Positions 36,912 to 42,834 of a stretch of DNA of 58,267 nucleotides are shown piece by piece. The stretch spans positions 265-58,531 of the forward strand of contig PKVW01000043.1 of the NCBI GenBank assembly GCA_003131585.1, in the 5' to 3' direction. Positions within the stretch are counted from its first letter, which is position 1. Each line of letters starts with the position of its first letter. Below the pieces are notes generated by a model. It did not search any database. It worked only from the letters and a program-made list of their open reading frames with translations, and was not told the origin of the DNA. The stretch comes from Acidobacteriaceae bacterium. Its GTDB lineage: Bacteria; Acidobacteriota; Terriglobia; Terriglobales; Acidobacteriaceae. A program made the translations under genes and the position numbers.

Positions 36912-37083
36912 GCGTCCTCGCGGTAGAAAGGACGTTGACGGGAACCAGTTGCCTGGGGTTTGATAGGGTTCGCATGCGATGCGACTTGCAAGCGGGCCGA
37001 AGTGGAGTCGGAGACACGACGACAGCGCCGGGAAGCCGGGGAACCAGCCCGCTCCCGGCGCAGTTGTTTTTCGCGATCTTGCC

Positions 37084-38388
37084 ATGAGCGCAGCGATCAT
37101 GACCGAACAGAAACGTCCGGCGATCGGCTGGATGGATCTTCTCTGGCTGCTGTTTCTAATCGGACTGGCGGCGCTGCCGCCGGTGGCGGAGATCCATAAG
37201 CAGCTCACGCTGCTGGCGATTGGAGTGGTGCAGTTCAGCGAGAGTTGGCTGCTGGCACAGGCTCCGCGGCGGGGCGCGGCGTATATCGTCCTGCTCAAGA
37301 TTGCGCTGGCCACTCTGCTCATCGACCATACGGGCGAGGTCGGAATCAACAGCAGCTACTACCCGATTTTTTACCTGCCGGTGGTGACCGCCGCGGAATA
37401 TTTCGGCCCGCTGGGGACGTTGCTGTGGACTGCACTGGCCTCGGCTGCCTACTGCTCGTATCTTTATCCGGCATTGCAGGAATATGAAATCACCGCGGAG
37501 AGCTACGGCTTGCTTGCTATCCGCATTCTTTTCTTTTTTCTCGCGGCGATGGTGGTGAACCGGTTCGTGGTGGAGAATCGGCGCCAGATCAAACGCTACC
37601 AGGAGTTGGCGGAGACCCTGGCCGAAACCAACCGCAAGTTGGAGCAGGCGCAGGCGGAGGCGCGGCGTTCGGAGCGGCTGGCGGCGCTGGGTCAGATGTC
37701 CGCCGGGTTGGCGCACGAGATTCGCAATCCCCTGGGCGTGATCAAGGGATCGGCGGAAATGCTTCACCAGAAGTTAGGGGAATCGAATCCTCTGGCCAGT
37801 GAACTGGCGGGTTACATCTCAAGTGAGACCAACCGTTTGAGCGCGCTGGTGACGCGGTTTCTCGATTTTGCCCGGCCCCTCCATGCTGAGTTAGCTCCCC
37901 AGGAGATCACTGCGGTGCTGGATCGCGCGCTGCACGCTGTGTCTTTATCTTTAACGCGGAAAGACGAGTTGGTGCGCGTGGAACGGCAGTATCAGCCGAA
38001 CTTGCCGCCGGTTCCGTTGGACGAGAGTCTTTGCGAGCAGGCATTCGTGAATCTGATTCAGAATGCTTACGATGCCATGGGCAGCGGCGGCATATTGCGA
38101 GTGACGGCGGCGCGGGCAAGCCTTGCGAACCGGGACGGAGTGGAGGTGCGGATCGAAGACACCGGGCCGGGAATTCCGGCGGAACTGCGAGAGCAGATCT
38201 TCAATCCGTTTGTGACTACGAAGAAAACGGGTGTAGGGCTGGGGCTGTCGATCGTCTCCCGGATTATCGATGGCCATCACGGAACCATTCGCGTCGAGAG
38301 TGGCCGGGAGGCGAATAATCTGCACGGGACATGCTTCGTGGTCTTTTTTCCCGCGAGCGTAGAGACTGCTGCCTGGTCCGCATCTTAG
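37084..38388 (+). CDS. NtrB-like membrane sensor histidine kinase
   Basis: A 434-residue kinase. About five membrane helices (17-190: LLWLLFLIGLAALPP, AYIVLLKIALATLLI, YPIFYLPVVTAAEYFGPLG, ILFFFLAAMVV) are followed by a coiled linker, the HisKA box LGQMSAGLAHEIRNPLGVIKGSAE, and an HATPase domain (NLIQNAYDAMGSGG, DTGPGIP, GVGLGLSIVSRIIDGHHG). It stands 73 bp before an NtrC-type regulator, its obvious partner. The sensing region resembles kinases that read membrane or quinone state, but the signal is unknown. Starts at ATG 37084; the upstream frame is poor. Situated after kdpC, it may be a later addition to the locus. Confidence 0.85.
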   Translation: MSAAIMTEQKRPAIGWMDLLWLLFLIGLAALPPVAEIHKQLTLLAIGVVQFSESWLLAQAPRRGAAYIVLLKIALATLLIDHTGEVGINSSYYPIFYLPVVTAAEYFGPLGTLLWTALASAAYCSYLYPALQEYEITAESYGLLAIRILFFFLAAMVVNRFVVENRRQIKRYQELAETLAETNRKLEQAQAEARRSERLAALGQMSAGLAHEIRNPLGVIKGSAEMLHQKLGESNPLASELAGYISSETNRLSALVTRFLDFARPLHAELAPQEITAVLDRALHAVSLSLTRKDELVRVERQYQPNLPPVPLDESLCEQAFVNLIQNAYDAMGSGGILRVTAARASLANRDGVEVRIEDTGPGIPAELREQIFNPFVTTKKTGVGLGLSIVSRIIDGHHGTIRVESGREANNLHGTCFVVFFPASVETAAWSAS

Positions 38389-38461
38389 TGAGTGTGCGCC
38401 CCGGTGAGTAGCGTTTAGGCTGGGCCGAAGATCGAGGAAGCGGCGGGCACCTGCCAACTAT

Positions 38462-39832
38462 ATGCCAACCATCTTGATTGTCGAAGACGAGGCGAAGATG
38501 CGCCGCCTGCTCGAATTGAATCTCGGGGAGGACGGCTTCAGCACTCTTTCCGCGGGAGACGCCGAGACCGGTCTGAAATTTCTGCGCGAGAGCACCGTCG
38601 ATCTTGTCGTGACGGACTTGAAACTTCCGGGAATGAACGGATTGGAATTCCTGCAGGCGATCAAGCGGCACAATGCGGCATTGCCGGTGGTGGTGATGAC
38701 GGCTTTCGGCACGGTGGAGACAGCGGTGGAAGCCATGAAGGCCGGAGCCAGCGACTATGTGCTGAAGCCCTTCTCGCTGAGCGAGATGCGCATGGTGATC
38801 CGCAAGGAGTTGGACGTCCATGCTCTGCGCGAGGAGAACCGGTCGCTGCGCGAGGCGCTGGGCAAGCGCTATGCGCATCCCAACGTGGTCTCGCGCAGCG
38901 CGAAGATGCAGGAAGTGCTGGCGACGGTGGACCGCGTGGCACCCACGAATTCGACGGTGCTGCTGGGCGGGGAGAGTGGCGTGGGCAAGGACTTAATCGC
39001 GCGCGCGATTCATGAGAAGTCGCGGCGAGCTTCGGGGCCATTCATCAAGATCAACAGCACGGCGATTCCGGAGAACCTTCTGGAAAGCGAACTGTTTGGC
39101 TATGAGAAGGGCGCGTTCACGGGCGCGACCGCGAGCAAGCCGGGCAAGTTCGAGTTGGCCGACAAAGGAACGCTGTTCCTCGATGAGATCGGCGACGTGC
39201 CGCCGGTGACCCAGGTGAAACTGCTGCGTGTGCTGCAGGAGCGCGAGTTTGAGCGACTGGGCGGCACGCGAACGGTAAAAGTGGATGTCCGGCTGATCGC
39301 GGCCACGAACCGCGATCTGCGCGAAGCGCTGGAGCAGGGAACGTTTCGCGAGGACCTTTACTATCGTTTGAACGTCGTTCCCATCGATATTGCGCCGCTG
39401 CGCCAGCGCAAGGAAGACATCCCGGATCTGGTGAATCTTTTCATTTCGCGCTTCGCCGGAGACTCCGGCAAGCCGGTGAAGAGTATTACGCCGGAGGCGA
39501 TGCAGATTCTGGTGAACTATCACTGGCCCGGGAATGTGCGCGAACTGCAGAACATCATCGAGCGAGCCTGCGCGCTGGCGAAGGGCACGGTGCTGGAGGC
39601 CGCGGATATTCATCTGGACTTGCGTCCGGCAAAGGCAGCCAACGGTGCGGGTGGATTTCTTCCTGAGGGCATGACCCTGGAGCACTGGGAGGACGAAATG
39701 ATTCGCGAGGCGCTGCGGCGGGCGAATGGAAACAAGAGTCACGCGGCGCGATTGCTGGGGCTGTCAAGGAATGCGCTGCGCTATCGGCTGTCGAAGATTG
39801 GCATTGCGGATGAGGGGGAGAAGGAAGCGTAA
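38462..39832 (+). CDS. NtrC-family sigma-54-dependent response regulator
   Basis: A 456-residue activator: receiver (D52 in [10 protein letters not shown] in DYVLKPFS), sigma-54 AAA+ domain with Walker A GESGVGKD, the GAFTGA loop that contacts sigma-54, [10 protein letters not shown] and the sensor [10 protein letters not shown], then a Fis-type helix-turn-helix ([28 protein letters not shown]). Phosphorylation by the neighbouring kinase would trigger oligomerisation and ATP-driven opening of sigma-54 promoters. No obvious -24/-12 site was noticed in the nearby spacers. Targets unknown. Confidence 0.93.
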
Positions 39833-40054
39833 AAAGGGGATTTCCTGTTCGGGATTTGTTCTGAGTTGAAATGAGAAAAGTTCGTCGGTGCCGGTTTGTC
39901 CGCAAATACAATTCTTCGTGAGAAGTGATGGCGGTCAGACGAAGGGACACTCCAAACGGCGTTCCCGAAACAGGATGGTTCCAACTCGGAAACGAGAATT
40001 ACTTTCGCGAGCCGCTCACACGGTAGCTACAAATCATTGCGAGGGACCGCGTCT

Positions 40055-40146
40055 GGAGAGTGTTGCCAGCGGGTACTGGACGAATGTCCTTCAAACAGTC
40101 GAGTGGCTTAGTCAGCCACTAGGGTTCGAGTCCCTCGCTCTCCGCC
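40055..40146 (+). tRNA. tRNA-like RNA with 8/4 acceptor/T stems, Ser/Sec type (allo-tRNA-like)
   Basis: An 8-bp acceptor stem (40055-40062 with 40136-40143, one T-G pair), discriminator G40144 and CC, a 4-bp T stem (40121-40124/40132-40135) with loop TTCGAGT, a long variable arm of 7 perfect pairs (40102-40108/40114-40120), and a 4-bp D stem (CCAG/CTGG). This 8/4 geometry is the hallmark reported for allo-tRNAs, known from Acidobacteria. Long arm and G discriminator are serine/Sec features. The loop holds CTTCAAA, the usual tRNA-Sec loop (anticodon UCA), but the stem pairs best one base out of phase (UUC centred, one A-G mismatch). So it may be a suppressor/Sec tRNA, a degenerate one, or a regulatory RNA. 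Confidence 0.65.
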
Positions 40147-40170
40147 TGTCACTCGACGGTATAAAACTGC

Positions 40171-40198
40171 TTGACAACTCCGCCATTGGAGTTATGCT
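40171..40198 (+). promoter_or_regulatory. Promoter with palindromic spacer
   Basis: TTGACA (40171-40176), a 16-bp spacer, and TATGCT (40193-40198). The spacer holds a perfect dyad AACTCC-N6-GGAGTT that just overlaps both hexamers, as an operator would. A start 6-8 nt after the -10 would fall at about 40204-40206, the first bases of the antisense segment. Confidence 0.55.
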
Positions 40199-40203
40199 TA
40201 ACA

Positions 40204-40275
40204 TGTTTGAAGGACAGCGTCCGGTACCAAATTTGGTGACCGCAGCCCCGACTGACTATCGGGGCTTTCGTGTTT
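40204..40275 (+). ncRNA. Candidate small RNA antisense to the tRNA-like gene
   Basis: The segment between the promoter at 40171 and a terminator. Its first 25 nt (40204-40228) can pair with 40072-40097 of the tRNA-like RNA: 23 Watson-Crick pairs and one G-U, with only a 2:1 internal loop, including 13 unbroken pairs (TGTTTGAAGGACA) over the anticodon loop. A further 8-nt match (40150-40157 to 40098-40105) extends the same helix if the RNA is one read-through transcript. Other folds: GGAC-AGC-GTCC (40212-40222) and the terminator stem. It could silence or refold the tRNA. Predicted from sequence only. Confidence 0.5.
40244..40275 (+). terminator. Rho-independent terminator
   Basis: AGCCCCGA (40244-40251), loop CTGACTA, TCGGGGCT (40259-40266), followed by TTCGTGTTT. 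An 8-bp stem with a moderately U-rich tail; ends the candidate small RNA or tRNA read-through. Beyond it, 40276-40530 holds no gene that I can support. Confidence 0.75.
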
Positions 40276-40530
40276 CTGCGTCTCACCTGCACCCGATTCC
40301 GACTGCATTGGCTGAAAACCACCACCTTGGTTGAAGGCGGCCACCGGCGCCTGATTTCGCGGCCAACTTTTGGGGAAGGTTATCCTCCTCGCTCCTGAAA
40401 ACAAAAGGGTTACTGAATTTTGTGCCGTTCCGTTGATGGCATGGCAGTTGCTTCGTACTTAACGCATCAACCTGTCGAGTTTCGGGTTCTAAAGTAGATT
40501 GGGAGCGAGTTTTCGGCACGAGGTGGACTT

Positions 40531-42834
40531 ATGAAAAGTAGATTCATAGCAAGTTCGACACTATTAACTCTCGCGTTGGCTGCTGCGCTCTCAGTTAGTG
40601 TGCAGGCGCAAACTACTGAGGAAGGCTCCGGTCCCTCGGAGCAACCCAGTGCGCCAATGGAAATGGGACAGGGTCAATCCGGACAGCCGCCTCAACCCGG
40701 GCAACCGCCTCAAGCGGGGCAACCGCCCCAACTCGGAGAGGAAGCTCAGCCGGGCGGACCGTCGGGCGAAGGCCCAGCCAAGACTGACCAGGGTGTGGGC
40801 CGTGTCAGCATGATTCATGGCGAAGTGTCGACGCAGCGCGGGGATTCGGGCGACTGGTCGGCTGCAGTATTGAACCAGCCCGTGGTCAATGGAGACAAAG
40901 TTTCCACTGGTGCGGCCGGGCGCGCCGAAGTGCAACTGGACTTCGCCAATATTCTTCGTCTGGGATCGAATGCGCAAGCCGGCATCGCGAACTTCACCAA
41001 CGAGCACATCCAGATTCAGCTTGGGCAGGGTCTGGCCAATTACAGCGTCTTCAATGAGAGTGAGGCCGAGCCAGAGATCGATACGGCCAACGTCGCGGTG
41101 CATCCCGCTCATAAGGATGTGAGTCTCCGCATTGAAGTGCGGCCCGATGGCGACACGATCGTCATCGTGCGCAAGGGTGAGGCCCAGATCTCAACTCCGC
41201 AGGGCATTACCGAGATCAAGCAAGGTGAGATGGCGACGGTACGCGGTTCCGGAGCCGATGCGAAGTACAAGATCGGCGCGGCCCCCGACCGCGATGACTG
41301 GGATCGCTGGAACAGCGACCGCGACCGTATGATTCACAACGCAGGCGCGTGGAATCACACGAATCGTTACTATGTTGGATCGGAAGACTTGGATAGCAAT
41401 GGCCGTTGGGAAAATGTGCCCGACTACGGTCAGGTATGGGTGCCGACGGAACCGGAGGGCTGGGCGCCGTATCGCGATGGCAACTGGACGTATGAGCCTA
41501 ACTACGGTTGGACGTGGGTTGGCAATGAGCCCTGGGGCTGGGCACCTTACCACTACGGGCGCTGGATGATGTACGGCAGTTCGTGGGGCTGGTGGCCAGG
41601 ACCGGTGTGGGGCGGAGGATTCTATCGTCCATTCTGGGCGCCGGCGTATGTGTCTTTCTTCGGATTCGGCGGTGGGTTTGGGTTGGGTTTTGGATGGGGA
41701 GGCTGGGGCGGCTTCGGGTGGCTGCCGATCGGGCCGGGTGACCGCTTCTTCCCGTGGTGGGGCGGATATCGCGGACGCTTCGGGGTGGTGGGCTTCAACA
41801 GAATTGGCGGCATCAACCGCTTCGGTGGAATGGCGCCGCTGCATAACGGCACGCGGTTTTCGAACCTGGCGCACATCAACGATGCGCGCATCGGGGGCGC
41901 GGTGTCGACGGTGGGGGCGGGGAAATTTGGAGCGGGCCGAACGACGGCTGTGGCCGCCACTCACGAACAGTTGAGTGGATCTCATATGATGACCGGTAAC
42001 CTGCCCGTCGTGCCCTCCCGTGCGAGTTTGTCGGCGAGTGGACGGGCCGCGGCTCCTTCCACGATTCACAACGGCGGGTCGCAGCATTTCTTCGGCACGC
42101 AGCGTACGGCGCGCCCGGAATCGTTCCAGCAGCAGACGGCGCACTTGCAGCAGTCCATGCAGCAGAGCCACTTCGCGCCGGTGGCGGCAGGGGCACGTTC
42201 GACCGGGGCGGGCGCCATGGAATCTCGCGGCACGTCGGCTGCGGGCGCGGGGAAGCCGAGCGCTGGTACGCCTGCGTCCGGCAGGGAAACGAATAGCAGT
42301 GCCACGAGAAGCGCGGGGAACCGTGCGGGGAACCAGGCTGCTGGGAATGAGAATGGAAATCGCGGCGCCTCGACGGGACCAACCCGTTCCGAGAACCGCG
42401 CGGAGTCGGCGTCGCCGAGCCGCGGCGAACCGAACCGCAGCGAGTGGAAAACGTTTACTCCACCGTTACACACAGCCGAGCCTGCGGAGGGTCGCGGTGG
42501 CAGTAGCGCGGGGTCGTCGGGTCGGAGTGAGAGCGGAAGCTACTGGAATCGCACGGCGCCGAGCTCAACCTACTCGCGCGGACCCGGTTCGAGCAATTAC
42601 GAGCGCGGCAGTTCCTCACGCCCGCAACTTAACATGAGGCAGCCCATCGTGCAGCCCCGGTCTTCCGGTGGCTACGGTGGCTATCGCGGTTCGCCGAGCT
42701 ACGGCGGCAGCCATGGCGGTTATAGCGGCGGTTCTCACAGCGCGCCTAGCTCCGGTAGTGGTGGCAGTCATCCCTCTGGCGGAGGCGGCAGCCATTCCAG
42801 CGGCGGCGGCCATTCGTCGGGAGGCCACCACTAG
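40531..42834 (+). CDS. FecR-domain protein with aromatic repeats and Gly/Ser-rich tail
   Basis: A 767-residue exported protein (signal about 1-27, ending VQAQ). A Pro/Gln linker made of 15-nt repeats (GQPPQPGQPPQAGQPPQ) precedes a FecR-like domain (about 92-250: GRVSMIHGEVSTQRGDSGDWSAAVLNQPVVNGDKVSTG, AEVQLDFANILRLGSNAQ, VRKGEAQISTPQG). Then comes a Trp/Tyr-rich DUF6600-type region (WVPTEPEGWAPYRDGNWTYEPNYGWTWVGNEPWGWAPY), a glycine-phenylalanine stretch, and about 300 residues of Ser/Gly/Arg low complexity ending in His-Gly-Gly repeats. Probably a surface or envelope protein; not the anti-sigma FecR itself. GAGGTGG precedes the ATG. Confidence 0.8.
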   Translation: MKSRFIASSTLLTLALAAALSVSVQAQTTEEGSGPSEQPSAPMEMGQGQSGQPPQPGQPPQAGQPPQLGEEAQPGGPSGEGPAKTDQGVGRVSMIHGEVSTQRGDSGDWSAAVLNQPVVNGDKVSTGAAGRAEVQLDFANILRLGSNAQAGIANFTNEHIQIQLGQGLANYSVFNESEAEPEIDTANVAVHPAHKDVSLRIEVRPDGDTIVIVRKGEAQISTPQGITEIKQGEMATVRGSGADAKYKIGAAPDRDDWDRWNSDRDRMIHNAGAWNHTNRYYVGSEDLDSNGRWENVPDYGQVWVPTEPEGWAPYRDGNWTYEPNYGWTWVGNEPWGWAPYHYGRWMMYGSSWGWWPGPVWGGGFYRPFWAPAYVSFFGFGGGFGLGFGWGGWGGFGWLPIGPGDRFFPWWGGYRGRFGVVGFNRIGGINRFGGMAPLHNGTRFSNLAHINDARIGGAVSTVGAGKFGAGRTTAVAATHEQLSGSHMMTGNLPVVPSRASLSASGRAAAPSTIHNGGSQHFFGTQRTARPESFQQQTAHLQQSMQQSHFAPVAAGARSTGAGAMESRGTSAAGAGKPSAGTPASGRETNSSATRSAGNRAGNQAAGNENGNRGASTGPTRSENRAESASPSRGEPNRSEWKTFTPPLHTAEPAEGRGGSSAGSSGRSESGSYWNRTAPSSTYSRGPGSSNYERGSSSRPQLNMRQPIVQPRSSGGYGGYRGSPSYGGSHGGYSGGSHSAPSSGSGGSHPSGGGGSHSSGGGHSSGGHH

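Follow-up and report, generated by a model that had tools for sequence, protein, structure and literature searches.

Among described RNAs, the allo-tRNAs come close to one half of the locus reported here, sharing with it an 8-bp acceptor stem, a 4-bp T stem, a long variable arm, varied non-serine anticodons and occurrence in Acidobacteria. According to the allo-tRNA section of PMC7609411, some allo-tRNAs have serine identity and work in E. coli; the UAU group did not work, and a link to transposons or toxin-antitoxin systems was hypothesized. The same article notes that allo-tRNA-like polycistrons occur in soil metatranscriptomes and that the natural function of allo-tRNAs is more speculative than that of tRNA-Sec. 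In contrast with our locus, no antisense partner is mentioned in that section, and the word 'antisense' is absent from the main text of the article. The TAT-type loci met in our own analysis also come without an antisense. The 2017 work of Mukai and colleagues on allo-tRNAs of the 8/4 and 9/3 types is said to mention possible regulatory noncoding RNAs in Acidobacteria in its abstract.

The other half of the locus recalls antisense-controlled systems. Hok/Sok likewise has an adjacent antisense RNA with its own promoter, several copies per genome (some of them degenerate), and a full-length RNA whose paired ends keep it inert until processing lets it act or bind its antisense; PMC4147584 states that the 3' end of hok mRNA is processed before translation or antisense binding. 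Unlike hok, the regulated RNA here is a cloverleaf without a shared ORF, and both genes lie on the same strand. CreTA also features an RNA that bears on tRNAs and is checked by another RNA, but CreT sequesters a rare tRNA through its codons and the CRISPR-like RNA represses transcription, as described in PMC8501985. At our locus, by comparison, it is the tRNA-like RNA itself that the small RNA complements. The plasmid RNAs RNAI and RNAII are a pair of non-coding RNAs whose recognition stretch diverges fast and which prefer their own partner. Our pair shares these three traits but is chromosomal, has a tRNA-like target and involves no replication primer. In the T-box riboswitch and the 3'ETS-leuZ sponge, an RNA pairs with a tRNA or a tRNA precursor, and the pairing described here is of that general kind; unlike those cases, the syntenic groups of our loci share no downstream gene.

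The locus lies in a 58,267-nucleotide stretch of contig PKVW01000043.1 from an Acidobacteriaceae bacterium (assembly GCA_003131585.1), which we call the window; all features are on the forward strand. The allo-tRNA-like gene occupies 40055-40144 and is identified by ARAGORN, which calls Glu(TTC) with its end at 40146, and by covariation of the cloverleaf in relatives. Upstream are a putative P1 -10 box (TACAAA, 40028-40033), placed by position alone and weak in the window copy, and an R-like 5' leader (40037-40054) that can pair with the D/anticodon stretch, as judged from nascent-RNA folding and from the preference for own leaders. The stretch from the D loop to the anticodon loop, R' (40072-40097, GGTACTGGACGAATGTCCTTCAAACA), is covered by the antisense segment R (40204-40228, TGTTTGAAGGACAGCGTCCGGTACC), the predicted 5' end of a small RNA. 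Pairing and covariation define R', and duplex energy, covariation and partner specificity define R. Their duplex, with 11 + 13 pairs flanking a small internal loop, has a predicted energy of -42.5 kcal/mol. The adjoining 5' part of the variable arm (40098-40105, GTCGAGTG) is complementary at all eight positions to trailer segment A (40150-40157, CACTCGAC), which is assigned from duplex energy and compensation. Both helices are thus as an earlier note on this DNA had described them, the long one with 24 pairs and its small loop, the short one with 8 of 8.

Between A and R lies promoter P2 (40171-40198), a sigma70-like element kept in relatives, with TTGACA at 40171-40176, a 16-nt spacer and TATGCT at 40193-40198. 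It matches the consensus at 10 of 12 positions, and one such element was found in the window copy against 0.1 +/- 0.4 in shuffles. Segment A sits upstream of P2 and is therefore absent from P2-driven RNA, so that its pairing requires a read-through transcript. Downstream of R, a terminator-like hairpin with its tail spans 40244-40276 (stem 40244-40266); relatives have the same hairpin with a T-rich tail. The earlier note had given this segment its own promoter and terminator: the promoter stands out clearly against shuffles, while the hairpin (one found, 0.7 +/- 0.9 in shuffles) is weak by itself. As a whole, the 233 nt from 40044 to 40276 fold at -96.1 kcal/mol (a z of -4.6 relative to 200 dinucleotide shuffles), and the minimum-energy structure contains the R:R' helix. 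The upstream neighbors within the window (36979-39832) encode a histidine kinase and a sigma-54 response regulator, and the downstream one (40531-42834) a DUF6600 protein with a sub-threshold FecR match.

From its sequence, the tRNA-like gene is of the 8/4 allo-tRNA type. The cloverleaf covaries: in a set of 16 sequences, both partners have changed at 12 of 27 pairs and 96.5% of cells are paired, with compensatory changes in 5 of 8 acceptor pairs and 3 of 4 T-stem pairs. The broader set of 23 distinct sequences gives 12 of 23 pairs and 96.4%, with 6 of 8 and 3 of 4 pairs compensated in the two stems. The plain label 'tRNA' used previously therefore needs qualifying, since the cloverleaf is upheld but the gene is not an ordinary one: besides its 8/4 type, CCA is unencoded in 46 of 50 loci. 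CCA is encoded in the remaining 4 of 50 and in all 31 ordinary tRNA genes from 30 of the 42 RF00005 loci of the same genome. The three copies in the window's own genome are absent from those 42 RF00005 matches. An ordinary tRNA-Glu, as in the ARAGORN call, was rejected on the 8/4 acceptor branch, the unencoded CCA and the copies missed by RF00005. No Rfam family reached its gathering score in the window, and the T-box riboswitch model gave no accepted match.

With automatic choice of the loop, the anticodons among 52 loci are GTC (14), GCC (10), GCG (10), TTC (6) and ATC (6), together 46 of the 52, and so varied and mostly non-serine alongside a long variable arm. Base 73 is G in 33 of 50 loci and T in 17 (L100 and L148 are left out of the base-73 and CCA counts), and GGA..TCC is present at 1-3:70-72 in 38 of 50; G73 and this GGA..TCC we take to be serine identity elements. 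Base 33 is other than T in 22 of the 52 loci, again with automatic loop choice. The rarely encoded CCA and the frequent non-T33 hint against charging and use in translation. Base -1 can pair with base 73 (T-1:G73 in 31 of 50 loci, A-1:T73 in 10 of 50), which could add a ninth acceptor pair.

The window's own genome carries three loci with a tRNA-like gene and R. We gathered 52 non-redundant loci, mostly from Candidatus Sulfotelmatobacter and relatives, with a motif seeded on conserved bases that under-counts divergent members. A pattern scan of named records returned 43 stretches, 42 of them titled as acidobacteria (8 of these Candidatus Sulfotelmatobacter). The remaining one, L105, is a 4.2-kb contig titled Verrucomicrobia (MAG) with the match near the contig end; the title possibly reflects a binning error. 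Two search models, R1 and R2 (distinct from the antisense segment R), extend the survey. Of 45 genomes from the genus, which belongs to Terriglobia, 26 have an R1 match, and the absence of a match in the other 19 suggests that the unit is dispensable; among 299 genomes drawn from the class, 15 have R1 matches, some of which are ordinary tRNAs. Antisense segments accompany 15 of 25 tested R1 matches (z -2.6 to -7.6, single-base shuffles), which comprise two repeats of known loci and 13 divergent members, seven of them within the genus and six in two further families of the class. The 10 R1 matches without antisense include SelC, Ser and Ile(TAT) genes and degenerate copies.

Weak R2 matches are frequent (in 190 of 399 genomes from the class and 278 of 396 from the phylum), and we regard most of them as ordinary long-arm tRNAs; testing covered the matches that had been assigned a locus. 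Antisense was found at 5 of 37 (the new L161 and L196, and three repeats), in a test that leaves out L188 and three secondary matches. The other 32 lack it (z -1.7 to +1.5, single-base shuffles), and these include L162, a close relative by score. Because the divergent members keep the antisense while most R2 matches are without one, the antisense is, on this comparison, a property of this clade and not of long-arm tRNAs generally. L073 and L156, called Ile(TAT) by ARAGORN, have no downstream antisense segment; neither do L163, L164 and L165, in which a TTATAA anticodon loop is seen by eye. A phage or plasmid origin was rejected, one query locus having no match in phages or plasmids; 27 viral-contig stretches match a 16-base D-arm pattern, and none fits the fuller 52-locus motif. 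Control of a neighboring gene was rejected as well: in 44 records (the window and L077-L119) neighbors recur only inside syntenic groups, the largest neighbor-gene cluster spanning 7 records.

Across relatives, the complementarity persists with different sequences. Duplex energies and P2 were evaluated for 50 of the 52 loci, L025 and L111 being dropped for N bases and a short flank. The R:R' duplex averages -38.8 kcal/mol with the own R and -26.2 kcal/mol with R from loci with a different anticodon arm, and it is at -30 kcal/mol or stronger in 45 of the 50. R is missing or poor in L041 and L057, and weaker in L033, L079 and L087. In an alignment of 45 loci (L041, L057, L087 and L112 have fewer than 14 ungapped pairs and are omitted, as is L001, the window copy, owing to its internal loop), both sides have changed at 14 of 19 positions. 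At the 12 variable positions of these loci, which are related by descent, 95.4% of cells are paired, compared with 72.9% when R is permuted among loci and 78.3% in the highest of 1000 permutations. L077, L098 and L103 (L061, L029 and L031 of the 52-locus set) are syntenic with the window locus; R' differs among these loci and in each of them pairs with the local R. Across nine genomes or records chosen among those with several copies (two or three each), the own R is the best partner for 21 of 21 RNAs, with a mean of -40.7 against -26.2 kcal/mol for other R. The recurrence of one arrangement with different sequences in dozens of loci agrees with the earlier note, which had held the complementarity to be beyond chance and had proposed covariation in relatives as a test; covariation is present in both the antisense helix and the cloverleaf. 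At the sequence level, the antisense relation between the tRNA-like RNA and R is strongly supported, and the two have changed together.

Correction between inverted repeats is known in principle, and repeats about 100 nt apart might be kept alike by template switching or gene conversion with no function at all. We consider such a mutational artifact very improbable, as the far strand of the anticodon stem, most of which has no counterpart in R, varies in step with the near strand, the promoter and terminator are conserved, and the same plan persists across families.

The signals flanking R recur as well. A P2 -10 box with at least 4 of 6 matches is present in 45 of 50 loci, and a -35 box with at least 4 of 6 or an extended -10 in 36 of 50, at a nearly fixed spot ahead of R; the rule for picking boxes was simple and chose some of them wrongly (L017). 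A terminator hairpin with a T-rich tail follows in 49 of 50. P1 consists of a TAnAAT-like box, generally 19-23 nt ahead of the tRNA-like body, that scores at least 5 by a simple rule in 35 of 50 loci; it has no -35 better than 4 of 6 to TTGACA. The strength of the P2 boxes, set against a P1 without a good -35, suggests that the small RNA would be made steadily and the tRNA-like RNA conditionally. In a subgroup (L020, L034, L062, L079, L099, L109, L114, L118 and similar), a CGTGGG(C/A)TTGC-like motif is seen by eye about 15-17 nt upstream of the P1 -10 box; many of these loci have an extended -10 in P2 instead of TTGACA, and the motif may mark a special sigma factor or activator.

Some BLAST matches span the downstream part only. 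Ten loci (L011, L012, L015, L022, L023, L024, L233, L241, L242, L243) keep R and the terminator hairpin, most with a recognizable P2, and have lost or broken the tRNA-like gene. There, model R2 finds nothing or scores weakly (L233, 16.7 bits; L242, 28.7 bits); a 19.1-bit match at L023 lies downstream. L024, L242 and L243 have two tandem R segments and no intact tRNA-like gene. Flanks are common to L012 and L015, and likewise to L023, L241 and L242, so fewer than ten events are represented. For several of these R segments the better fit is not with the resident tRNA-like RNAs tested but with those of other genomes (-35 to -44 kcal/mol), while R of L241 fits no tested tRNA-like RNA well (best -23.8 kcal/mol). 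A complete cloverleaf without R was seen once (L041), and L244 retains the tRNA 3' end and A alone. The imbalance of ten to one, from a small sample and two differing searches, is the trace that a harmful tRNA-like RNA would leave.

The existence of antisense-only units also favors a reversed direction of control, in which R regulates mRNAs or ordinary tRNAs and the tRNA-like RNA is a sponge or decoy target; fragments of tRNA precursors that sponge small RNAs are a known precedent. This alternative is quite unlikely in our view. R varies between syntenic loci, which is hard to square with conserved messages, and the R segments of the three own-genome loci, which bind their own partners at -41 to -48 kcal/mol, favor none of the 31 ordinary tRNAs, binding none better than -24.5 kcal/mol. 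The idea of an antisense aimed at ordinary tRNAs is not supported by the latter result, which covers these three R segments and tRNAs from 30 of the 42 RF00005 matches.

The anticodon arm is complementary to several partners, namely its own stem, the antisense RNA and the leader. The leader binds R' at -18.3 kcal/mol, compared with -14.5 kcal/mol for foreign leaders, and in predicted nascent RNA it pairs with R' in 94-96% of 50 loci (foreign leaders, 41-50%; shuffled leaders, 14-33%). Once the whole tRNA-like RNA is present, the leader seldom wins (8 of 48 loci). Trailer A binds the variable arm at -15.9 kcal/mol, compared with -7.8 kcal/mol for a control window, and is compensated in several loci (e.g. 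L014, L019, L046, L052, L101). Foreign A segments bind almost as strongly, at -14.2 kcal/mol on average, so the partner specificity of A is slight. Read-through RNA is predicted to prefer the R:R' refolded state by 13.5 kcal/mol on average in 48 loci, and in 46 of them this state is preferred with at least 12 of 19 R:R' pairs.

These results bear on the two proposals of the earlier note, a trans-acting small RNA and a 3' trailer that refolds the tRNA; both are supported, and they are not exclusive. The small RNA is favored by the recurrence of P2 and the terminator, and by survival of the unit at ten loci without a usable tRNA-like gene; the trailer is favored by the complementarity of A and the predicted refolding of read-through RNA. 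A purely cis-acting trailer, in which R and A do nothing but refold P1 read-through RNA as an attenuator or quality-control tail and P2 is incidental, would account for the position of A upstream of P2, its match to the variable arm and the refolded state preferred at 46 of 48 loci. It seems unlikely, given that P2 holds a nearly constant position ahead of R, in -35/-10 or extended -10 forms, and that R and the terminator, mostly with P2, outlast the tRNA-like gene.

We think it probable that two RNAs form a control unit at this locus, the allo-tRNA-like RNA being kept in check by an antisense RNA dedicated to it. Support for this at the sequence level comes from the anatomy, the co-evolution, the partner specificity and the antisense units that survive alone; transcription, binding and the direction of control are what we infer. 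P1 would give the allo-tRNA-like RNA, and P2 an antisense RNA of roughly 70 nt whose 5' part, R, complements the D-loop-to-anticodon-loop stretch of its target. Acting in trans, this antisense RNA would first contact the exposed anticodon loop and then open the D and anticodon arms, inactivating the tRNA-like RNA, perhaps with subsequent cleavage of the duplex; loop-first contact is a guess, as the predicted fold of the small RNA leaves, on average, just half of its first 10 nt unpaired. In cis, the window has no visible terminator separating the tRNA-like body from R; a P1 transcript running to full length would thus end in a tail with A and R and would refold to an inert long hairpin. The 5' leader may briefly hold the R' stretch during synthesis and delay folding, and an active cloverleaf would appear only after the tail is processed and the antisense RNA runs short. 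The logic would be like that of hok/Sok, with the tRNA-like RNA replacing the toxin mRNA.

Membership in the type I toxin-antitoxin systems was rejected. An antisense RNA with its own promoter and terminator can be recognized in the sequences, but a toxin peptide in the regulated RNA cannot: across 50 loci, the longest closed ORF of the P1 transcript has anywhere from 9 to 63 codons, with no common length, and because no ORF is common to them the unit is not of type I. More tentatively, it is possible, if less likely than not, that the unit is an RNA-only toxin-antitoxin system, with the allo-tRNA-like RNA as toxin, a dedicated anti-anticodon small RNA as antitoxin, and a hok-like order of folds. 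The toxin would mis-read common sense codons or otherwise occupy the translation machinery, and passage from leader hairpin to inert read-through hairpin to active cloverleaf would time its release. Copies would diversify within a genome, each antitoxin serving its own toxin, and antitoxins would outlive toxins, as the tandem R segments at three loci may reflect, possibly guarding against the units of relatives.

In the open-access literature searched, a scope that does not take in Mukai et al. 2017, no description of such an RNA pair was found. The paired system, carried by soil acidobacteria, is apparently undescribed, although its tRNA half is of a known kind and its control logic resembles that of known antisense systems. 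As a conserved feature of these genomes, to judge from the comparisons above, the RNA pair is real. If the proposed control is true, small RNAs dedicated to masking the anticodon of a tRNA-like RNA would represent a new form of control over the decoding machinery, and allo-tRNAs would gain a testable role. If, in addition, the free cloverleaf is harmful, the unit would be an RNA-only addiction module with partner-specific diversification like that of antisense-controlled plasmids.
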